Virus record (IMG/VR): IMGVR_UViG_3300045009_000227
Coordinates: 1-22,989 of that record
Source of the DNA: a virus
Direction: 5' to 3' (one strand)
Length of the DNA: 22,989 nucleotides
The position numbers and the translations under genes are program-made. Below, piece after piece: positions 3,904 through 22,779 of the stretch. Position 1 is the stretch's first letter; each line of letters starts with the position of its first letter. Under the pieces are notes generated by a model. The model made no database searches and was not told the origin of the DNA. It saw nothing but the letters and a program-made list of their open reading frames with translations.

Positions 3904-4347
3904 TTAGTTTGAAATACCAATAGCAATAATATTAACGTTTAAAGAAAGATCTCCTGATGCTCCAAATCTTACAACACCTTCTACCCTTGATACTGTAATA
4001 GATTTTAAAATAACCGTAACATTTTGTCCAGCAGGAGTATTGCCAATATTTACTGCAGTTGCTGTAACAATTGGTGGAAACTTAAAGTCTGATTTAAAAT
4101 TATATTCAAAAGTTTTTTCGTTTCCTGCGCTTACTGTAGAATTATTTGCTACTTCTCTAAAACCACCAACAATTTGCAACTCAGAAGTTTTTAAGGTTTG
4201 TTGTGCAGCGCTTACGGTATCAATAGTACTATTTTTATAGGTAGCAGAAGATACTTGAGTAGATAAATCATTAATTGTATTAGCCAAGTCATAAATGTAA
4301 GTAACATCTAATGGTTGACCTCGTTCTGGTAAAGGTATTTTAGCCAT
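3904..4347 (-). CDS. Tail-tip or fibre-associated structural protein, lectin-like beta domain
   Basis: This 147-residue protein begins MAKIPLPERGQPLDVTYIYD followed by a short helix (DLANTINDLSTQV), an opening typical of small appended tail proteins in environmental phages. Residues ~58-147 form an all-beta domain with FPPIVTATAV and SLNVNIIAIGI strands, resembling the H-type lectin-like domain used by phages to contact host surface sugars. It is the last gene of the tail cluster but has its own promoter and Shine-Dalgarno (GGAG), and its stop runs into the Shine-Dalgarno of the zinc-ribbon gene. It is therefore the first gene of the transcript that also carries replication genes. The role in virion attachment is inferred. 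Confidence 0.65.
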   Translation of the reverse strand: MAKIPLPERGQPLDVTYIYDLANTINDLSTQVSSATYKNSTIDTVSAAQQTLKTSELQIVGGFREVANNSTVSAGNEKTFEYNFKSDFKFPPIVTATAVNIGNTPAGQNVTVILKSITVSRVEGVVRFGASGDLSLNVNIIAIGISN

Positions 4348-4363: not shown

Positions 4364-4372
4364 ATTATATCA
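4364..4372 (-). promoter_or_regulatory. Extended -10 promoter for the last tail gene and replication genes
   Basis: TGATATAAT on the minus strand, a perfect extended -10, ends 16 bases before the ATG at 4347. No good -35 lies 17 bases upstream. The region overlaps the stop of the preceding 137-residue gene (4374). The predicted transcription start falls at or beside the Shine-Dalgarno. This is the only promoter seen upstream of the primase/helicase block. Confidence 0.6.
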
Positions 4373-11093: not shown

Positions 11094-11744
11094 TTATACC
11101 TCTTCTAAGGTTACAGATATATTCCACATGTCAAAATTATCGCCACCACGTTTTACGACAGAGTAATTAAAATCAACAAAATATACTTCTACAATTTGAT
11201 TATATTGTGCTAGGTGTCCAAAAGAATCATCTATTATTTCTTCATCTGTTTTAAAATTAGCATAGTTGTCGTATGCTAAATACATCCAGAATGGACCTGT
11301 ATGACTGTTATACCAGTCTAATATTGCTACCCCGCCAGCGCCACCATCTGCAGTAAATTCTTGAGATGTTACATTTTTATATGGAGATGCGCCAGTTGCA
11401 TCATCAAAATCTGCTACTTGATAATATGCTCTTGAAGGAAGTAAATTCCATGAAAAATTAATTTGTAATTTATCTGCAATATGATATGAACGCATACGGC
11501 CATTTATTGTGCGCTGACGCTGTTCTATTCTTTGCGGGGTAAAAGAAAGTTCACTTCTATTATGATCAGATAAAATAATAAATTGATTTAATAAATCTGG
11601 ATCTGTTTCTTCTGTATCTGCGCCCACTTCTTGTCCATTGGGAATATAGATCCCATCTGTTAAGGTTCCAGAATTATTAGACCATAAAATTCCTTGAGGT
11701 CTTTGATATCTTTTTCTACCAGTTAAATAGGCTGAGGTTGTCAT
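11094..11744 (-). CDS. Distal tail (Dit-like) minor tail protein
   Basis: A 216-residue protein between the tape measure and the hub, the usual place of the distal tail protein that ends the tube and joins it to the tip. The central strands (DKLQINFSWNLLPSRAYYQV) and the C-terminal MWNISVTLEEV match the beta-rich pattern of actinophage minor tail proteins at this position. The start ATG overlaps the tape-measure stop (ATGA). The classification as Dit is from gene order and fold pattern rather than clear sequence identity. Confidence 0.65.
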   Translation of the reverse strand: MTTSAYLTGRKRYQRPQGILWSNNSGTLTDGIYIPNGQEVGADTEETDPDLLNQFIILSDHNRSELSFTPQRIEQRQRTINGRMRSYHIADKLQINFSWNLLPSRAYYQVADFDDATGASPYKNVTSQEFTADGGAGGVAILDWYNSHTGPFWMYLAYDNYANFKTDEEIIDDSFGHLAQYNQIVEVYFVDFNYSVVKRGGDNFDMWNISVTLEEV

Positions 11745-14700
11745 GATACTCTCTGCCCCCTAACCCTTTGTGAATCTAGGTATTTAATTTCATTCATTAC
11801 AGTTTTTGCTATTTGATTTGCTGAAACGTTTGTTCCGCCAACACTAATGCCAACACTATAATTATACACGTCAGTTGAGTTGTCTTTAATTGATATGTTT
11901 CTTGATGATCCTTTGCCTGTTCCGTAAGAAGGCCTTATCATTGATGGATATTTAGATTCATTGAGCATTGACAATAGTGGACCAAATTGTTGTGCTGCCC
12001 TTCTATTCATTACAAATTCTCCAGGGGTAAGCATGGCAGGTACTGAATCAGACCCCATCCTTCCACCAACAGCAAAATACTCAGGAACCATTCCACCTAT
12101 GTTCATAGGCTTTATAAGTCCACCATACATTTTTTTTGTTTTTGGTTGTACAAAAGGATTGCCTGCTCCATAAGTAAAATTGCTTTTTGGAGCAACTTTT
12201 GGTTGTACAAAAGGATTGCCTGCTCCATAAGTAAAATTGCTTCCTGGCTTTGTTTTATCATTTTTACTTGAGCCACCCTTATCACTACCTCCTGAGCCAC
12301 CCGCACCACTACCTCCTGAGCCACCCGCACCACTACTTTCTGAGTCATCCGCACCACTGGCCATCCCTTTTTTAATAGTTCTAATAACATGAATTGTTTC
12401 TACTGTTGTATTTAAACTAAGAATCGCTTTTAAAAGTTTGTCTGCTGTCTTTCTTGCTGCATCAACTTTGGTTTCATAATCTATCATGTTAACTTTTGCT
12501 ATATCATCTGCAACTTTTTTGTCAGCAAAAAATTGTTTTTGTTGATTAATAAATGCCAAATCTGCATTTTTTTGATCATTTATTTTTTGTAAATTATTTT
12601 GTGCAGCAATTAAACTATCTTGTGCTACTTGCAATTTTCCTTTTTGAATAGAGTAAATTTGATCTTCTAATAAACGAATTGCTGAAGAGGCAGCATTTTT
12701 TTGTTGTTCTAAGTTAAAAATTTGTTGTTCAATTGCTAATTGTCTTTGACTAATTTGATCTTTAGTCATTCCTCCAGCAGTAAGCCCAGCAATTGCCTGT
12801 CCACGAGAAGCCTCAATTCCTGCTTTTTGTTTTTCTAATTGAGATGCGGCTGCCTGTGCTCTTGCATCTTGAACCGCCTGCGCTGCTGCTGCAACGTCTC
12901 CAGATGTTAAGGCGGTAGCAATATTTAATCTTGATTTTTCTTGATTGGCTATTTCTTGATTAATAGAAGATATTTTTTCAAGGGCATTAATTTGAGTATC
13001 ATACTTTTTATTAATTTCATCTGTTGCAGTATCAATTAATTTTAGATTGTTAGAAAGTATTGATCCCTCGTCTTGCAGGGCTTGAATTGGACGATCATAC
13101 AATATTTCTATATTTCTTCTTTTCTTTTCTATAGATTTTTCAATACCGTCAATTTCTTTTTCTATATCATCAACAACCTTTTCAGCATTTTTAACTGCAG
13201 CCTCTCCCTGTTGAATAGAGCCTCTGTATCTAATATCGATAACTTTTTCTTGTAAATCAAGAATTTCTTCTGGATCTGTAATGTAAGACTCTTGTTTTGC
13301 TCTTTGTTTTTGAAGTTTTAATAATTCTTTAAGTTGTGCTACTAATTGTTTTTGACTTTTTGTTGTTTTTGCATTTACAATCATTTCTGCCAAAGCAGCA
13401 TTATTTGACAATTCTGTTGCGGCTTTATAATCAAATTTTAATTTAATTAATTTATTAAATGCTTGTATTTGTTGTTTTTGTGAATTAATCATTTTTTCTA
13501 ATTCATTTTTTTCTTTTGTTGTTGTTGTTGTTGTTGTTGTAGTAGTTGAGCCAGATATTTGTTTTTTTGTTTTTTCTTTAATTTCTAATAATTCGTCTAG
13601 TCTTTTTTGTGCACCTTGAGCAATGTATGGTATATTAGAAACTAAACCGTTTAAAATATCTTGTGCAACAGAAGCATCAATTAAAGCGGCTCGTAATAAT
13701 TTAACTTTTGTATTATAATCTGTAATGTTTTTTGTTGATTTTGCAAAATTTGGATTAATATTTATCAATGCTTCATCTAAAAATTTTAATCCTACTTCTC
13801 CTTTTGGAAGAGTGTTAATTAATGTTAAAACTGAAGACTCATATTCCTTCACTTTCATGTCTGATCTAGCAAATTCGCTAGTTAGGGCAGTTAGGTTGGC
13901 AGCAGTTTCACTTACAGTTATGTTAAATAGTTTTTGTTGTTTTGTGTTTAATTCAATTTTTGATTTGCCAAATCCCGCAACAGACCCGCCTCCTCTACCA
14001 ACAGTAGAAAGTTTTAAATCTGGAACCTTTTTTACACCTTTTGATAATTCCTTATTTAAAGCATCAATAGAATCTTGTGTTAATTTTTTAGCAGCAACTC
14101 TTCCTTCTTCAGTGCTAATGTCAATGTTTTTAAATTTTAATAAAACATTTGTTTTTTCTGATTGTAATGCTAATGCCTGAATAATGTCGTCTATTGTTTT
14201 TTGTGAAAATCCTTGACCACTAAGATCTAAAGAAATTGTTTGAAATGCAGCCAATGCTTCGTCTTGTGTTGCTGTTTTAAGTTGTGCAATATCTTTTTTA
14301 AATGTAGTTAAAAACTCTTCGCCTTTTCTTATTTCTTCAACCCTATTTTTTTGTTGTGCAGTAAGTTGAACTGAACTAACAGTTGCTCCAGATCCCGCTC
14401 TTGGTGTTGGAGTTTCTCCAAAAAGATTTCCTAAAGTTTTAGCCTTTTCTGATGTTATTGTCATTGCATCAGCAAGACCTTCAGTTTTTAATCTTTCTTT
14501 TTCTTTTGCAGCAGCCAATAATTTTGTAATTCCATAAAGTCCGCCAAATGCAACCGCAACTAATTTAAGTGGTCCAGGCAACATCATTAAAGACTGTGCA
14601 ACAAATGCTAAGCCTCCAACTTTCATTCCTATTTCTCCTGCTTTGCCTGGAAGCATAGATGCTGCCATGGTAGCGCCACCAATTCCTGCTAATCCTCTTC

Positions 14701-17700
14701 CACCCATTCCTCTTATGTTTGCAAATCTACCTGAAATTTTAGGTGCTGGTGGTTCTGGTGGAATTATTTTTGGTGCTGCTTTTACTAATTTTTCTTGTTG
14801 TCTTCTGTAAGATTTTTGTATAGCATCTACTGTTGTTGTTCCATATAATTGTGCTTGTGATTGTGCTGCTTTTATAGCGGCTGTAGACAAATTACTTCCT
14901 GACTGTGCTACATTTCTTTGTCTACTATTCATTCCTTGTTCAAGCCCACGAGCAATGTCTTGGCCTATTAGAATTGTTTTTTTAGATGGAGACGCAGCGG
15001 CAGCACCTTGTTTTACACCAGTTACAGTAGACATAGATAACTGTTGTCCTTGATTAAAACCTTGTTTTTGTAATTGTGACAATAAAGTTTGTGACTTGTA
15101 AGAGGTCATTCCTTGCTCATATCCAAATGCAAGCATTTGACTTTTTCTAGATAAACCTATTCTCTGTCCACGTTCTCCTCGATTAATTTCTCCACCAAAT
15201 GCACCTATTGTCGTTATTTGTTTTTGTATTTTTGGTATGGATTGTCTAAATGCTTGAGTTGTTGCCTGTGTCATCGTTTTTTGTAAAGCATTTTCTACAG
15301 CATTATAAAATTCTGGTTCTGAAACAGCCTTTGAACCTGCCAAAGATAGTTGTTGTCCTATATTTTTACCAAATAAAATTACATCTTGCTTTACTGCTGG
15401 GTCAGATGCTGCTGAAGGTAAAAGACTTGTTATACTCTTGTATATTCTTGATGTAGCCAATTCTGCATTTTGTTGAAAAAATTGTCCGCTTTCTGTTCCA
15501 GACATTTGTCCTTTGTTTAGTTTTTCAGGAGCAATAAATCCAAAATTAGTAAATGCTTTTACTCTTGTTGCTTGTGCAAGGCTTCTACTTATTGATGATG
15601 AAACAGCAGAGGCTAATTGTTGAATTTCTTGTTTATCAAGATTTCTACCAGCCGCTCCATGAGAAAAAACCATACCCATAGAATTAGAAGCATTTTTTCC
15701 AATTTCAAATCCAGGAATATTGTCTGCAATTATTCCTTGAATTAATGGTGCATATTTTTCTACAAACTTTGCTGGAATAACCGCTTCTCCTGGAGACAGC
15801 ATTGCTGGAACTATATCTCCTGCGCCCTTTGGTCCTGGTACTGAAACAATACCACTTGCTAATTTTCTACCGCCTCTTGGTGGCATCATCATTCCAGGAT
15901 TATTAAATGCAAAGTTTCTTGCTGCTATGTTAGCAGATTGATATGCGGCAATTAATCTTCTAAGCGCTTCTCTTTCTACATTAAATGTTTGAGTTAATTT
16001 GGCATGTGTTTGATCTAATGAATGTGCGGCTGCTGCGGCTTCTAATTGTTCTGAGTTTAAATATTTTGTTTGTTCTCCAAGAACCTTAGATTGTCCAGTA
16101 AGCCGCAAAAATCCTTGACGTAATATTAATGCACCTTTTAATGTGTTTGCCAAACCATTAGCCAACAAACCAAATGTCATTAAAAAGATAGGTCCTACTG
16201 CTCCTATACCTACTGTTAGTAGGGTTATTAATTTTTTTGTACCGTCTGAAAGATTGCCAAACCTTTCTAATACTTTGCCAACAAACTCTACAATCGGAGT
16301 TGCTGCTTCTAAAAATGATTTACCAACTGGAACAAGAGCAAGTTTAAGATCTTCTACACTCTTTCTAAATTTATTCATAGATGAATCTGCGGTCATGCCT
16401 AACTCTTGTTCAGATAGTGCAGAAAGTTCTTCTACAGATGCGTTTGCTAAATCAAGAACACGAGAGGCCTGATTTCCATCTTTAGCAACGTTAGCAAATA
16501 ATGTTGACAGACGAGCGAATTGAAACTTACCAAACATTTGTTCAATTGCTCTGGCTCGTGAAAGTGGATCTAATCTGTTAAGAGCATTAGCAAACTCAAT
16601 TACTGTTGCTTTCAAATTTCCCTTATTTTTTTCAATAATTGCAGTAGCATTAATTCCAAAACTTTTAAGCATGTCTGATGCTTTGTTAGTTGGATTAATT
16701 AATGCTCCAAGACCTGATTTTAAAGCATTGGCACCTTCTGATGCATTAATACCGCCTTCTTTCATTGCTGCAATAAAAAATGTTAAATCTTTTACATCTC
16801 CGCCAAGTTGTTGAACAACGGGGGCAACTTTAGGAATAGCAGTAGTGATGTCATCTAAAGATACGACAGTTTGGTTTTCTACTGCGTTTAAAAAGTTAAT
16901 TGAATCTGCAAGTTTATCAGATGACATTCCAAAAGCATTTTGTAATGAAATAGTTGTTTCAAGTGCTTTTTGACTATCAATTTGACCCAAAATAGAAAGT
17001 CTAGTTGCTTCTGTAGTTTGACGTTGTAAATCTAATCCTTGGAAACCTGCCGCTGCAGCCTCTGCTGCTAAACCAACAGTAGTAGAAACTGCCACACCAT
17101 ATTTTGTAAATTGTTTTCCAAGTTCTGTTATATTTTCTAATGCTGCCTGTGTTTCAGACTGCGGTGTAAATAAATCTCCATAAACTTTTCTAAATTTAAT
17201 AGTTTGCGCTTCCATTTCCATGAAAGTTTTTGCAGCGGTAGACGCAACTATTGAGAGCGGTATCGTAAAACCAACCATTAATTGACGACCAGCCCATTGT
17301 GTATTTTTACCAAAATTTAATAGATTGGTTGTACCTTGTTTCATTAATTGATTAAATAGTGCTTGTTTCTGTGCTGCTATGGCTGTTTTGACACCATAGT
17401 CTTGCATATTAAGAGCGGTAGGTCTAACAGCAATTGCTTCCATTGCCCCGCTAGCATTACGACCTAATTTTATGTATTGTGTTTGTAAGGTCTTAACACG
17501 CTCTTCTGCTACCTTGCCAATTGTGTCGAATTCTGTTTTAAATAATCTACCAAATGTTTTTGTAGAGGCACCAGCATAGCGGAAGTACTCCCGCATTCCA
17601 AATTTATTTTTTTCTAAAGAATTGGTGAAAGTTTCTGCACTAGTTCTTACAGTACGAAGTTCTGCAGAAAAAGCGCCAATAGAGTTAATACTATTAATTA

Positions 17701-17857
17701 AGTTTTTCTGCAGAGACTTCTGGGCAAGCGCTGCTGACTCGCTGGACCTAGCAATTGAAGCATGAAACTGAGATATTTGTCTTTGTAAAGACTTTAATTG
17801 TGCTAATGCTTGCGACGTATCTATATTTACGCCAATATTAGCATTAACATCAGCCAT
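11741..17857 (-). CDS. Tape measure protein (siphovirus, 2038 residues)
   Basis: The tape measure sets tail length and is ejected with the DNA. At about 0.15 nm per residue, a general relation for such proteins, 2038 residues predict a tail near 300 nm. The N-terminus is coiled coil; residues ~212-420 match the TP901-1-type tail core (FMEMEAQTIKFRKVYGD, KSGLGALINPT). Hydrophobic segments lie near 545-575 (LITLLTVGIGAVGPIFLMTF) and 1070-1115, candidates for membrane passage. Two copies of a PAML-[ST]-PGE motif lie near 685 and 1940. The C-terminal third is coiled coil, then a Gly/Ser linker and two NFTYGAGNPFVQPK repeats. No peptidase or lysozyme domain is seen. GAAGGTG precedes the ATG. Confidence 0.95.
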   Translation of the reverse strand: MADVNANIGVNIDTSQALAQLKSLQRQISQFHASIARSSESAALAQKSLQKNLINSINSIGAFSAELRTVRTSAETFTNSLEKNKFGMREYFRYAGASTKTFGRLFKTEFDTIGKVAEERVKTLQTQYIKLGRNASGAMEAIAVRPTALNMQDYGVKTAIAAQKQALFNQLMKQGTTNLLNFGKNTQWAGRQLMVGFTIPLSIVASTAAKTFMEMEAQTIKFRKVYGDLFTPQSETQAALENITELGKQFTKYGVAVSTTVGLAAEAAAAGFQGLDLQRQTTEATRLSILGQIDSQKALETTISLQNAFGMSSDKLADSINFLNAVENQTVVSLDDITTAIPKVAPVVQQLGGDVKDLTFFIAAMKEGGINASEGANALKSGLGALINPTNKASDMLKSFGINATAIIEKNKGNLKATVIEFANALNRLDPLSRARAIEQMFGKFQFARLSTLFANVAKDGNQASRVLDLANASVEELSALSEQELGMTADSSMNKFRKSVEDLKLALVPVGKSFLEAATPIVEFVGKVLERFGNLSDGTKKLITLLTVGIGAVGPIFLMTFGLLANGLANTLKGALILRQGFLRLTGQSKVLGEQTKYLNSEQLEAAAAAHSLDQTHAKLTQTFNVEREALRRLIAAYQSANIAARNFAFNNPGMMMPPRGGRKLASGIVSVPGPKGAGDIVPAMLSPGEAVIPAKFVEKYAPLIQGIIADNIPGFEIGKNASNSMGMVFSHGAAGRNLDKQEIQQLASAVSSSISRSLAQATRVKAFTNFGFIAPEKLNKGQMSGTESGQFFQQNAELATSRIYKSITSLLPSAASDPAVKQDVILFGKNIGQQLSLAGSKAVSEPEFYNAVENALQKTMTQATTQAFRQSIPKIQKQITTIGAFGGEINRGERGQRIGLSRKSQMLAFGYEQGMTSYKSQTLLSQLQKQGFNQGQQLSMSTVTGVKQGAAAASPSKKTILIGQDIARGLEQGMNSRQRNVAQSGSNLSTAAIKAAQSQAQLYGTTTVDAIQKSYRRQQEKLVKAAPKIIPPEPPAPKISGRFANIRGMGGRGLAGIGGATMAASMLPGKAGEIGMKVGGLAFVAQSLMMLPGPLKLVAVAFGGLYGITKLLAAAKEKERLKTEGLADAMTITSEKAKTLGNLFGETPTPRAGSGATVSSVQLTAQQKNRVEEIRKGEEFLTTFKKDIAQLKTATQDEALAAFQTISLDLSGQGFSQKTIDDIIQALALQSEKTNVLLKFKNIDISTEEGRVAAKKLTQDSIDALNKELSKGVKKVPDLKLSTVGRGGGSVAGFGKSKIELNTKQQKLFNITVSETAANLTALTSEFARSDMKVKEYESSVLTLINTLPKGEVGLKFLDEALININPNFAKSTKNITDYNTKVKLLRAALIDASVAQDILNGLVSNIPYIAQGAQKRLDELLEIKEKTKKQISGSTTTTTTTTTTKEKNELEKMINSQKQQIQAFNKLIKLKFDYKAATELSNNAALAEMIVNAKTTKSQKQLVAQLKELLKLQKQRAKQESYITDPEEILDLQEKVIDIRYRGSIQQGEAAVKNAEKVVDDIEKEIDGIEKSIEKKRRNIEILYDRPIQALQDEGSILSNNLKLIDTATDEINKKYDTQINALEKISSINQEIANQEKSRLNIATALTSGDVAAAAQAVQDARAQAAASQLEKQKAGIEASRGQAIAGLTAGGMTKDQISQRQLAIEQQIFNLEQQKNAASSAIRLLEDQIYSIQKGKLQVAQDSLIAAQNNLQKINDQKNADLAFINQQKQFFADKKVADDIAKVNMIDYETKVDAARKTADKLLKAILSLNTTVETIHVIRTIKKGMASGADDSESSGAGGSGGSGAGGSGGSDKGGSSKNDKTKPGSNFTYGAGNPFVQPKVAPKSNFTYGAGNPFVQPKTKKMYGGLIKPMNIGGMVPEYFAVGGRMGSDSVPAMLTPGEFVMNRRAAQQFGPLLSMLNESKYPSMIRPSYGTGKGSSRNISIKDNSTDVYNYSVGISVGGTNVSANQIAKTVMNEIKYLDSQRVRGQRVS
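12140..12242 (-). repeat. 46-bp exact direct repeat inside the tape-measure gene
   Basis: Copies at 12140-12185 and 12197-12242 are identical and spaced by 57 bases (19 codons), so the frame is kept. They encode two copies of NFTYGAGNPFVQPK. The identical DNA implies a recent duplication or ongoing gene conversion. Confidence 0.9.
12283..12354 (-). repeat. 24-bp tandem repeat encoding a Gly/Ser linker in the tape measure
   Basis: Two identical 24-base units (12283-12306 and 12307-12330) are followed by a diverged third (12331-12354). They encode the GAGGSGGS-type stretch before the C-terminal repeats of the tape measure. Unit length is a multiple of three, so changes in copy number would keep the frame. 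Confidence 0.85.
13517..13540 (-). repeat. Trinucleotide microsatellite (ACA)8 in the tape measure
   Basis: Eight perfect ACA codons on the minus strand followed upstream by two ACT codons give a run of ten threonines between coiled-coil segments. Such tracts can change length by slippage without breaking the frame. Confidence 0.9.
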
Positions 17858-17882: not shown

Positions 17883-18206
17883 TTATCCTTGTGCGTTAAG
17901 AATGTCAGTAACAGATGACAGATTAATGCCAGATGCTGCTTCAACAATCTTATACACAGTTGGAAGATCTAATAAATCTTCTAGTTTTTGAATGTCTTTT
18001 GCCAATTCTGGCTTATATTGCTCCATAGCAATTTGTACACATTCAACAAGAAGAGTCATTGATTTCTCATTATCTTCTGCAACCTTAGCCACCCCTTCAA
18101 ACTTCTTCATAAACGGACGAAGAAGAGAGATTTTTAAAGGGCGAACTGTAATTTTTGTGCCATCAATGAGAGTAAGTTCTTGAGCCTCATATGTGGTTGT
18201 CGCCAT
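17883..18206 (-). CDS. Short tail assembly chaperone (paralogue of the next gene upstream)
   Basis: A 107-residue soluble helical protein that would coat the tape measure and deliver tail-tube subunits. It aligns almost without gaps to the first ~92 residues of the long paralogue at 18254-18967, sharing by eye about 43 identities including DGT, PLKI, LR-x-FM, LVECV, KDI, ED, PT-x-YKI and GI. It lacks the long C-terminal extension and no overlapping frame adds one: only 25 bases separate it from the tape measure. It has its own extended -10 promoter and a strong Shine-Dalgarno (GGAGG). Both arginines use CGN codons. Role is assigned by position directly upstream of the tape measure and by the paralogy. 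Confidence 0.8.
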   Translation of the reverse strand: MATTTYEAQELTLIDGTKITVRPLKISLLRPFMKKFEGVAKVAEDNEKSMTLLVECVQIAMEQYKPELAKDIQKLEDLLDLPTVYKIVEAASGINLSSVTDILNAQG

Positions 18207-18230
18207 TTTTTCCTCCTATAGGTTATGTTA

Positions 18231-18239
18231 ATTATAGCA
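18231..18239 (-). promoter_or_regulatory. Extended -10 promoter for the short tail chaperone
   Basis: TGCTATAAT on the minus strand, 24 bases before the ATG at 18206, in the gap between the two chaperone genes. The predicted mRNA has a leader of about 17 bases containing GGAGG. No clear -35 is present. Confidence 0.65.
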
Positions 18240-18253
18240 TAAAACGTTTATTT

Positions 18254-18967
18254 TTAATTTTTTATTAAATTAGGATCACGCAAATCATCATAATCAATTC
18301 CCATGCCTATGCCAAACCCTGCTTTCTCAGCATTAGGACCCTGAAGAGCCAAAATATCATTTCCATCTTTTGTTTTACCACCACTAAAGACTCTGGCTTT
18401 CATGTCTTCCCATTCTTGTTGACCTTTTTTGTTATTGCTATTTTTATCTAAATCTACCCCTTGAATTGCAGCCAAAAATTTTTTCTCTTCATAATCTAAT
18501 TCTCTTTTACTGGAAAGAGTAGCCAATAATTCTGTTATAGATAAAGACTCTTCTAGTTCTTGATAATCTTTCCAAATACCCAACAAAAATACCTCAGATT
18601 CTAGTTTGGCTAAATCTAAAGTATCCCAAGTAGATCCACTTTCAGTTGCCTGATCTTTAACTGGTTGTTCAGATTTTTTGTTAATTTTTATACCTGCAGC
18701 AATATTTAATATTTTATATATAGTTGGCATGTCTACATTGTCTTCAATATCTTTTATATCTTTTGATATTTTTGGATAAAACTGTTTCATACAAATTTTA
18801 ACGCATTCTACTAAAACTAATATTGCCTCATCGTCATTTTTAGTAGTATAAATTGCCTGAAAAACATTCATAAACTGTCTTAAATATTTTATTTTTAATG
18901 GTATTATATCTATTTCAGTACCATCAAATAATTGTATTGTTTCAATTTTATATATTTCTGTAGCCAT
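18254..18967 (-). CDS. Long tail assembly chaperone with C-terminal extension
   Basis: This 237-residue protein has the same N-terminal ~95-residue domain as the short chaperone, then a linker (KINKKSEQPVKDQATESGS) and a C-terminal domain (~112-237) with helices DTLDLAKLESEVFLLGIWKDY and ITELLATLSSKRELDYEEKK. This is the layout of the frameshifted long form (like lambda gpGT), but here it is a continuous frame. It lies just after the tail-tube gene and before the tape measure, as usual. No Shine-Dalgarno precedes the ATG, and a -10 element lies only 7 bases upstream of it, so the message is predicted to be leaderless. Three of four arginines are AGA, in line with lower expression than the short paralogue. 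Confidence 0.8.
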   Translation of the reverse strand: MATEIYKIETIQLFDGTEIDIIPLKIKYLRQFMNVFQAIYTTKNDDEAILVLVECVKICMKQFYPKISKDIKDIEDNVDMPTIYKILNIAAGIKINKKSEQPVKDQATESGSTWDTLDLAKLESEVFLLGIWKDYQELEESLSITELLATLSSKRELDYEEKKFLAAIQGVDLDKNSNNKKGQQEWEDMKARVFSGGKTKDGNDILALQGPNAEKAGFGIGMGIDYDDLRDPNLIKN

Positions 18968-18974
18968 TTTAACT

Positions 18975-18983
18975 ATTCTATCA
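18975..18983 (-). promoter_or_regulatory. Extended -10 promoter producing a predicted leaderless mRNA
   Basis: TGATAGAAT on the minus strand. With the usual ~7-base distance, transcription would start within a base or two of the ATG at 18967. The stem of the tail-tube terminator occupies the place where a -35 would be. The intervening bases (AGTTAAA) contain no Shine-Dalgarno. Confidence 0.55.
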
Positions 18984-18988
18984 TATGC

Positions 18989-19020
18989 AAAAGACCCACT
19001 CCCTTGTTAGGGAATGGGTC
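18989..19020 (-). terminator. Rho-independent terminator of the tail-tube gene
   Basis: A 12-base-pair stem (arms 18993-19004 and 19009-19020) closes a four-base loop and is followed on the minus strand by TTTT. One position is a G-U pair in the minus-strand RNA but a C-A mismatch in the plus-strand RNA, so the hairpin is selected in the minus-strand transcript. It lies 20 bases after the tail-tube stop. Confidence 0.85.
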
Positions 19021-19040: not shown

Positions 19041-19682
19041 TTATGATGCGGTATGAGTACGATCTACGATCTTACCGTATGCACCAGAAACGTCTTCTGG
19101 AAGTAGACGGAATGAAACTTCAAACATTGAAGGTTCATCACGCTTTGCCGATACTGTTACGTTTTCAATTGAAAGCGCACGATATCCGACATAAACACGT
19201 TCTACGTTATCAGAATTAGTACAATCACCAGTTCCTGGTCCTACTGCCAAAATTGCTCGTTCTACTGGACACTCACCTAGTTCACCTGCTGAAAGATTCA
19301 GACGGCGTCCTGCGGAAGTTGACTTTGTACCAGTAAGTTCTGCGGATGGCATTGCAAGAGCGATAAGAAGGTTTTCAAGTGTTGCCTCAGCAAATGCTGT
19401 TGCAACGTTTACCTGCATACCTTGTTTGTATAATTTTGCAACGTCAAGTACTTGATCAACTGCAACTTCACCAAAGTCTGGTTGGAATTGCATTTCAAGA
19501 CCATTCATTGTATATCCAACGTTATCAAAATCAGGGTCTGCTGACAAGGTTGACCTGTAAGACTCTGTTGATACAAAAGGATAGTCTGTAAATACATCAC
19601 CATCTAAAGTTGTGTCGCAAACGAAAAACGCTGCAGCACCAACTATAATATTAGTTGACGTACCACGGGTATATGCTGGCAT
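19041..19682 (-). CDS. Major tail tube protein
   Basis: A 213-residue protein forming the tail tube. It sits between the tail-terminator candidate and the chaperone pair, and has its own promoter and terminator as expected for the most abundant tail protein. The sequence has the beta-strand pattern and loop of tail-tube proteins: DNVGYTMNGLEMQFQPDFG, a central helix (ATLENLLIALAMPS), then VERVYVGYRALSIENVTVSA and SMFEVSFRLLPEDV. Arginine is largely CGT/CGC and it is more G+C rich than the tail-tip genes, suggesting strong translation. Shine-Dalgarno GAGGTG precedes the ATG. Confidence 0.85.
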   Translation of the reverse strand: MPAYTRGTSTNIIVGAAAFFVCDTTLDGDVFTDYPFVSTESYRSTLSADPDFDNVGYTMNGLEMQFQPDFGEVAVDQVLDVAKLYKQGMQVNVATAFAEATLENLLIALAMPSAELTGTKSTSAGRRLNLSAGELGECPVERAILAVGPGTGDCTNSDNVERVYVGYRALSIENVTVSAKRDEPSMFEVSFRLLPEDVSGAYGKIVDRTHTAS

Positions 19683-21454: not shown

Positions 21455-22422
21455 TATAAAACTCCAGGACGAGTTATTGTTTTAACGTATTTTTTTAGTA
21501 TCTTATCTACTAGCAAATTACCAGTGCCACTAAAAATATTTTTATCATATTTAAAATTAAATTGATCAGTTCTATAAGACTCTATGTATCGCTTGTAATA
21601 ATCTAGTTTGCCACATCTTATGTCATCAATAAGCATATTGGTTGCGTCTTTAATATCATTAGGTACTACCTTATACCCTGTTTCAAGATAGAACATATAG
21701 TCTACGCCTTCTGGAAAACTAACTCCGCCTTGAAAGGTTTGAATGTTAGCACTGTCTGCGGTATCAAACCAAGAAAACGAATCTGATGCTGCAATTGCCA
21801 TTCTTGCTGGTTTTCTTTCTGCTCTGTTCCATTTATCTACACCTGAAGATGGATCTTTTACAATACCGCTTTTATCTTTTGTAATACTATAATCATAACT
21901 ATCTAACGCTGGCTCTTCTTCGCTAGAATCCCAAACCAACTCAGCATTTTCATATGCTTTAAGAACCTTATATCCTCTTTTCCAAATTGGAATGTAGTCA
22001 GTGCCTTGACCAACTACCTGGAGCCATTCTGTTGTAAAATAAAATCCATCTGGAACATAAGAATCAATTATTTGTCTTGCTAGTTTTTCTTGCTCTGTGT
22101 ACTCTGCTATTTCCGTAGCGGTAGTTGCAAGGTCATTTGGATCAACATATGGTCTAAGTATTTCTAAATTATCTTCAACTACAATATCTCCACGACTAGA
22201 TCCATTTTTTTCATATATGGTTACAGCGTAATAATCATCGTAATTAGAAAAAGAATCAGCCAAGGTGCGTGTTACTAGGGCACTAGCGTTTGCTGTGACT
22301 GTCACATCCAATATTTCTTCATATCTATCATTGTTTGATATTACAAGAAAATATGATGTACTTGCTGTTGGAACAGTATATTCAATGCTAAGCGGATATG
22401 GGGGAAGTCTTAAAATTTCCAT
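21454..22422 (-). CDS. Head-tail connector/adaptor protein with an added N-terminal beta domain
   Basis: A 322-residue protein. Residues 1-90 form an Ig-like beta domain (TSYFLVISNNDRYEEILDVT, NYDDYYAVTIYEKNG). From LRPYVDPNDLATTATEIAEY the sequence matches helical head-tail adaptors that bind under the portal, and a second helical part near residues 240-290 (YKVVPNDIKDATNMLIDDIR, YYKRYIESYR) completes it. Between them lies an insert of ~110 residues with charged, aromatic loops. It follows the SAP/Rho-N-like gene through a TAATG overlap. The adaptor role is well supported by position and motif; the role of the beta domain is unknown. Confidence 0.75.
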   Translation of the reverse strand: MEILRLPPYPLSIEYTVPTASTSYFLVISNNDRYEEILDVTVTANASALVTRTLADSFSNYDDYYAVTIYEKNGSSRGDIVVEDNLEILRPYVDPNDLATTATEIAEYTEQEKLARQIIDSYVPDGFYFTTEWLQVVGQGTDYIPIWKRGYKVLKAYENAELVWDSSEEEPALDSYDYSITKDKSGIVKDPSSGVDKWNRAERKPARMAIAASDSFSWFDTADSANIQTFQGGVSFPEGVDYMFYLETGYKVVPNDIKDATNMLIDDIRCGKLDYYKRYIESYRTDQFNFKYDKNIFSGTGNLLVDKILKKYVKTITRPGVL

Positions 22423-22754
22423 TATTCTATGCCATAATATCTTGCTAACTCGTGAGGAGTTGCTAATCTAACACCTTTACGAGTTAGCCACCAATTGGCT
22501 GCCTCCTTATTGACTATATTATATCCGTTTTTCAAAATACCAAATTCTTTATTTATACTATGTTTGCTATTATCTGAAAATAATGCAACTTTTTCTGAAT
22601 TTTGTGTTTTGGCTATTTTCACAACCTCTTTACCCTCTAGTATTTTAAGCATTTGTTCTCTTGTTTTTGCATCTTTTAAATCAATATCATTGTTTTTAGC
22701 AAATGATTTTATTTCAAATACACTTTTTGTTTTTAAATTTTCTACATCTAACAT
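22422..22754 (-). CDS. Small SAP/Rho-N-like protein downstream of the capsid gene
   Basis: A 110-residue protein. The N-terminal ~40 residues (SVFEIKSFAKNNDIDLKDAK, then EQMLKILEG) form a helix-extended-helix of the SAP/HeH/Rho-N type, a nucleic-acid or protein-docking motif. The C-terminal WWLTRKGVRLATPHELARYY is a compact segment commonly found in small neck-region proteins of phages. The start is ATG 22754, which follows GGAGGA. An in-frame ATG six codons upstream (22772) overlaps the promoter -10 and has no ribosome-binding site. It is probably a head-neck accessory protein. Confidence 0.7.
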   Translation of the reverse strand: MLDVENLKTKSVFEIKSFAKNNDIDLKDAKTREQMLKILEGKEVVKIAKTQNSEKVALFSDNSKHSINKEFGILKNGYNIVNKEAANWWLTRKGVRLATPHELARYYGIE

Positions 22755-22758
22755 ATTT

Positions 22759-22764
22759 TCCTCC
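22759..22764 (-). promoter_or_regulatory. Ribosome-binding site deciding the start at 22754
   Basis: GGAGGA with four bases to ATG 22754. The longer reading from ATG 22772 would place the start within the TATAAT box, upstream of the predicted transcription start, so the shorter protein is preferred. Confidence 0.75.
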
Positions 22765-22770
22765 ACTGTC

Positions 22771-22779
22771 ATTATATCA
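22771..22779 (-). promoter_or_regulatory. Extended -10 promoter for the head-tail connector operon
   Basis: TGATATAAT on the minus strand ends 16 bases before the ATG at 22754, exactly the same spacing and same nine bases as the promoter at 4364-4372. It follows the capsid-gene terminator, whose stem occupies the -35 position. Confidence 0.65.

Follow-up and report, generated by a model that had tools for sequence, protein, structure and literature searches.

The synthesis of the tail assembly chaperones G and GT by frameshifting is a textbook recoding event, maintained since the ratio between the two proteins matters, and the programmed frameshift in the tail genes is conserved in most long-tailed phages. 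In lambda, approximately 30 copies of G are made for each GT (PMC5009743). In phage TP901-1, when GT is made from a permanent fusion and no free G is present, the particles look normal but are non-infectious (PMC4493119). A tail chaperone encoded by two genes is a kind already known from the Bacillus phage 0305phi8-36, for which an arrangement without a frameshift was proposed in 2007; one of the two chaperone genes was reported to be without a recognisable ribosome binding site (PMC2147016).

Here we analyse a stretch of viral DNA of 22,989 nucleotides (IMG/VR record IMGVR_UViG_3300045009_000227, referred to below as the window), in which a -1 frameshift has most likely been replaced by a gene duplication, with the ratio of the products set by initiation signals. 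Duplication instead of a programmed frameshift had been put forward in a preliminary description of the window, and the idea is supported by a comparison with its relatives: the nearest characterised ones have a one-gene, -1 layout, and the window's own clade has a fused long gene together with a short one.

Two paralogous genes between the tail tube and tape measure genes

On the minus strand of the window, the genes follow one another in the order major tail protein, long chaperone, short chaperone, tape measure. The upstream neighbour (19041..19682) is a major tail (tube) protein gene by its match to PHROG 2175, and a major tail protein is annotated at the equivalent position in Streptomyces phages. 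The downstream neighbour (11741..17857) encodes a tape measure protein of 2038 residues, identified through PF10145 and PHROG 10030. Both chaperone ORFs lie between these two genes, as is typical of the tail assembly chaperone (TAC) family. The long gene (18254..18967, minus strand) encodes a GT-type protein of 237 residues, a one-frame fusion identified by PHROG and BFVD matches, and the short gene (17883..18206, minus strand) a G-type protein of 107 residues, identified by its N-domain homology and by PHROG. The major tail protein is the likely client of the T-like domain and the tape measure protein the likely client of the G-like domain. Within the tape measure gene, the region that encodes the C-terminus (11741-12390, minus strand) contains repeats rich in Gly and Ser, as well as a duplicated SNFTYGAGNPFVQPK segment. 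Searches for tRNAs and Rfam elements found none in the window.

The G-like, N-terminal domain of the long protein (residues 1-97; 18677..18967, minus strand) aligns with the short protein by BLASTP at 43/97 identical and 69/97 similar positions (E 2e-29), so that the earlier count by eye of 43 identities over about 92 positions in a shared N-terminal domain was essentially right. The two proteins are homologous, and the N parts of both match PHROG 10504. The T-like, C-terminal domain (residues 113-237; 18257..18631, minus strand) matches PHROG 10474 instead, a family whose members in known phages are encoded by a separate ORF; in Streptomyces phages the homologue of this domain is the -1 frame ORF. 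That the N and C parts of one long protein fall into separate PHROG families was counted in favour of a G/GT identity. The short protein matches PHROG 1932 (TAC) in 12 of 38 relatives, with a best E of 6e-4, and there is homology to the TACs of Streptomyces phages.

Searched against BFVD, the model of the long protein found GT-type chaperones (best E 1.6e-13), with matches named TAC at E 6e-4 and weaker and the GT protein of N15 at 0.08. The model of the short protein could be aligned with HK97 gp14 (2ob9) over 100 columns, a weak match (TM 0.47, E 3.3); no match was significant in a PDB fold search with the model of the long protein or in a PDB sequence search with the short family. A hit of the long protein to Pfam DUF4778 was weak, fell below the cut-off and was set aside. 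By family membership, the two genes are predicted to encode tail assembly chaperones of the G and GT types.

The two paralogues might instead have diverged in function, so as to act at different tape-measure sites or assembly stages rather than as the excess and minor members of a G:GT pair. This would be in keeping with a within-locus identity of only ~41%, and with the faster change of the long N domain, which has a mean pairwise identity of 0.60 and a dN/dS of 0.26, as compared with 0.74 and 0.14 for the more conserved short protein, under purifying selection on both genes. It is, however, rather unlikely in our judgement, as the gene layout mirrors that of lambda G/GT, the strands and main helices follow in the same order in both predicted N domains, and there is colinearity between the long gene and the predicted frameshift product of its relatives.

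Survey of relatives and the reading frame of the long gene

A profile (HMM) survey of IMG/VR identified 333 loci, among which 272 have a fused long gene and a separate short gene ('N+C N'), 47 have the frameshift layout ('N C') and none is mixed; the remaining few are incomplete, mostly at contig ends. Removal of duplicates left 153 distinct long/short protein pairs, and in these the window's clade always has the fused long gene followed by the separate short paralogue, making the pair universal in this large clade of uncultured viruses. Exactly two copies, in ORFs of ~110 and ~240 residues, are present on every one of the 14 contigs of 83-110 kb. WhiB is found on 13 of these 14 large contigs, which points to actinobacterial hosts for the clade, placed to phylum level only. 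A search of genome contigs found no cellular or prophage copies.

Annotated relatives were limited to the Streptomyces phages of the Stanwilliamsviridae (127 records), along with three Rhodococcus phages. In all of these, the N domain is encoded by a single gene that has no second copy, and the C domain lies in a different frame. Some of these frameshift-type chaperone genes are annotated in their records as joined features. In 37 of 37 distinct frameshift-type loci the C domain lies in the -1 frame, with an overlap of 43-88 nt, and nearly all 37 have, at the 5' end of this overlap or close to it, GAC CCA AAT (with the heptamer C CCA AAT) or GAC CCG GAA (loci with the conserved -1 overlap motif: L001, L164-L169, L172-L173 and L254-L288). 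GAC CCG GAA contains no standard X XXY YYZ heptamer, yet occupies the position of GAC CCA AAT. The Rhodococcus phages Trina and NiceHouse have G GGA AAA.

In a protein tree, built from few columns and with rough bootstrap values, the N domains of the long, short and frameshift-type proteins form three clades (support 96/92, 94/95 and 98/91), a topology that fits a single duplication followed by vertical inheritance. A conserved Trp is most often at residue 114 both in the fused long protein and in the virtual frameshift product; the long gene is thus colinear with the frameshift product of the relatives, and its fusion lies at the old slip site.

The long protein had been described as continuous in frame, and the ORF is indeed open through both domains in a single frame in the window and in every complete relative examined. 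A sequencing error behind the fused frame is ruled out by the same open frame in all 153 distinct pairs. L160, listed as an exception with its C domain not in frame, translates into a normal fused long protein. A programmed -1 frameshift of the G/GT type would call for a T-like domain in the -1 frame, an overlap and a slippery site; no conserved heptamer was found in the clade, whose complete loci are all one-frame fusions, and a cryptic frameshift in the long gene was likewise rejected, as the A-run is not conserved and heptamers are at chance level.

Recoding could still take place in a dnaX-like manner, if ribosomes slipped into the -1 frame on A-runs where the two domains meet and so came to an early stop, giving a short product; the separate short gene would then be a redundant or specialised extra. 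In the window, the codons AAC AAA AAA TCT GAA lead to an immediate stop in the -1 frame, and an AAA AAR pair occurs within codons 90-112 in 66 of the 153 long genes, 49 of these having a -1 stop within 12 codons. Against this, most relatives are without an A-run, canonical heptamers occur in 23/153 long genes as opposed to 20.4 by synonymous shuffling, with no fixed position, and the clade as a whole has a separate short gene, which is strongly conserved. We therefore regard continued recoding of the long gene as very improbable, and favour a fused gene that is read in one frame and accompanied by its short paralogue.

Start signals, codon use and the expected product ratio

In the window, the major tail protein gene is separated from the long gene by an intrinsic terminator (18993..19020, minus strand; hairpin z -5.4), which is followed by an extended -10 element (TGATAGAAT, 18975..18983, minus strand) that ends 7 nt before the long gene's ATG. 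The short gene has an extended -10 (TGCTATAAT, 18231..18239, minus strand) 24 nt before its ATG, and a Shine-Dalgarno (SD) sequence, AGGAGG (18212..18217, minus strand). The preliminary description had assigned an SD to the short gene and none to the long, and had seen the short copy as a separate gene with its own promoter; both observations were confirmed, and the long gene also has a promoter-like element.

These features were counted in 149 distinct loci. An SD was found for 0/149 long genes and for 148/149 short genes, 120 of which have the full AGGAGG. The extended -10 of the long gene ends 5-9 nt before the ATG in 141 of 149 loci (1.9% expected by shuffling), and that of the short gene is mostly 23-30 nt before the ATG, which would give a leader of ~25 nt. 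The -10 sequence itself is TATAAT in all 149 short genes, and in the long genes mostly TAGAAT or TAAAAT, which are weaker variants. A terminator-like hairpin with a T tail precedes the long gene in 138/140 loci and is found between the long and short genes in 0/141.

In actinobacterial hosts, leaderless genes make up over 20% of the total, as recognised by a TA-like box ~12 bp before the start codon and no SD (PMC3160421). By this criterion the long gene, with its -10 box and no SD, is predicted to be leaderless, the transcription start site itself being a prediction. The frameshift-type gene has the layout of the short gene (SD in 27/29, leaderless in 0/29), which indicates that the short copy keeps the ancestral start signals and that it is the long gene that has changed. 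In seven relatives, 14-20 nt separate the -10 of the long gene from its start, several with a G-rich stretch. Given these gaps, the leaderless state is not absolute across the clade, and the long genes of L125, L141, L142, L207 and L330, with a gap of this size and a G-rich stretch, are perhaps reversions to leadered initiation.

Similar elements occur elsewhere in the window. An extended -10 (TGATATAAT, 22779-22771, minus strand) overlaps the called ATG of an ORF of 116 residues (22422-22772), which probably starts instead at an in-frame ATG at 22754, with GGAGG before it. Further tail genes lie upstream of the ORF at 3904-4347 (minus strand), and this ORF too has an extended -10 of its own (TGATATAAT, 4364-4372) 16 nt before the ATG, as well as an SD-like AGGAG. 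Promoter-leader-SD units seem to be common in the late region of this phage.

With the major tail protein as the reference, the short gene has a higher codon adaptation than the N part of the long gene in 151/153 loci, and the latter falls below the tape measure gene in 143/152. The long gene has the poorest codon bias and the short gene the one closest to the major tail protein. An initial claim of CGN codons in the short copy and AGA codons in the long rests, in the window, on 2 versus 4 Arg codons; family-wide the CGN contrast holds, with CGN fractions of 0.82 for the short gene, 0.36 for the N part and 0.15 for the C part of the long gene, and 0.88 for the major tail protein. The codon and conservation data agree with a predicted excess of the short protein over the long.

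In mycobacteria, leaderless initiation has been reported to be comparably robust to leadered initiation (PMC4633059), so a missing SD alone does not show that the output of the long gene is low. The long gene is without an SD, as first stated, but what had been taken as a sign of low output points rather to an mRNA predicted to have no leader. With such efficient leaderless translation, and with read-through from the long gene's promoter serving both genes, which no terminator separates, the two proteins might even be made in similar amounts. We consider this quite unlikely, given the poorest codon bias in the long gene, with an N part that mostly ranks below the tape measure, the short gene's bias towards that of the major tail protein, an invariant TATAAT for the short gene in place of the mostly weaker -10 of the long, and a G:GT ratio that is essential in lambda (PMC5009743) and TP901-1 (PMC4493119). 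Control of the ratio by initiation fits the clade-wide differences in promoter, SD and codons, from which we infer the positions of the transcription starts and the short-over-long excess.

Proposed origin and comparison with known systems

The two-gene architecture of the clade and its single origin, the homology between the two proteins and the dichotomies between their genes in initiation signals and codon use can be brought together in one scheme, and we think it probable that the G and GT pair goes back to one duplication of an ancestral -1 frameshift gene, with the ratio set by initiation and codons combined. The single ancestral gene, of the type still present in the Stanwilliamsviridae, would have been duplicated once in the ancestor of the clade. 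The short gene would be the copy from which the T-like domain was lost, its leader, SD and TATAAT promoter remaining those of the ancestor. In the other, the long gene, the two frames would have become fused at the old slip position, behind the terminator after the tail-tube gene, with a -10 so near the ATG that the mRNA would begin on the start codon or directly beside it. The short protein, in excess, would coat the tape measure, and the scarcer long protein would recruit tail-tube subunits via its T-like domain, and the ratio between them would depend on how strong the promoters are, on whether initiation is leaderless or SD-led, and on the choice of codons. Since TP901-1 particles made with GT only are non-infectious, a fused gene needs another source of the short protein, which here would be the paralogue. 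As to whether the frameshift was replaced once, and the replacement kept clade-wide, by a pair whose leaderless and SD-led starts set the G:GT ratio, our confidence and our doubt are evenly matched.

One clade has lost the frameshift and its sister clade retains it, and the proteins of the two are homologous; this makes it testable whether selection maintains the ratio or the recoding, and also whether leaderless and SD-led starts can work as a fixed-ratio device. If this is true, a stoichiometry device would have been made from two bacterial modes of translation initiation, possibly responsive to the state of the host ribosomes. For annotation, there is the warning that two chaperone ORFs need not imply a missed frameshift. 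In the searchable literature, we found no earlier report that describes such a replacement across a clade whose sister group has kept the frameshift, nor one of a leaderless/SD-led split of a chaperone pair.

Among the known systems, 0305phi8-36 is of the same two-gene type, with paralogous short and long chaperones and no frameshift. It is a single phage lineage, however, its gp143 has an extra N-terminal domain, and the accessible part of its description includes neither a frameshift-type sister clade nor a promoter analysis (PMC2147016); its proteins had no sequence match to those of the window, which matched only Streptomyces and Rhodococcus phages. Compared with the actinobacterial leaderless (TA-led) genes described earlier (PMC3160421), the long gene differs in being one of a duplicated pair within a phage structural module, and in being paired with an SD-led paralogue. 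As in lambda gpG/gpGT, the short protein corresponds to the N domain of the long one, to which a T-like domain is added, and the genes lie between those for the tail tube and the tape measure; unlike in lambda, the window's clade has two genes and no frameshift, and its ratio would be set by initiation signals, not by the rate of slipping. The chaperone pair of the Stanwilliamsviridae has homologues of both domains (~35-46% identity) in the same gene order, and an N-domain gene with the promoter/SD layout of the clade's short gene, but it has only the one N-domain gene, with the C domain in the -1 frame and no second copy.
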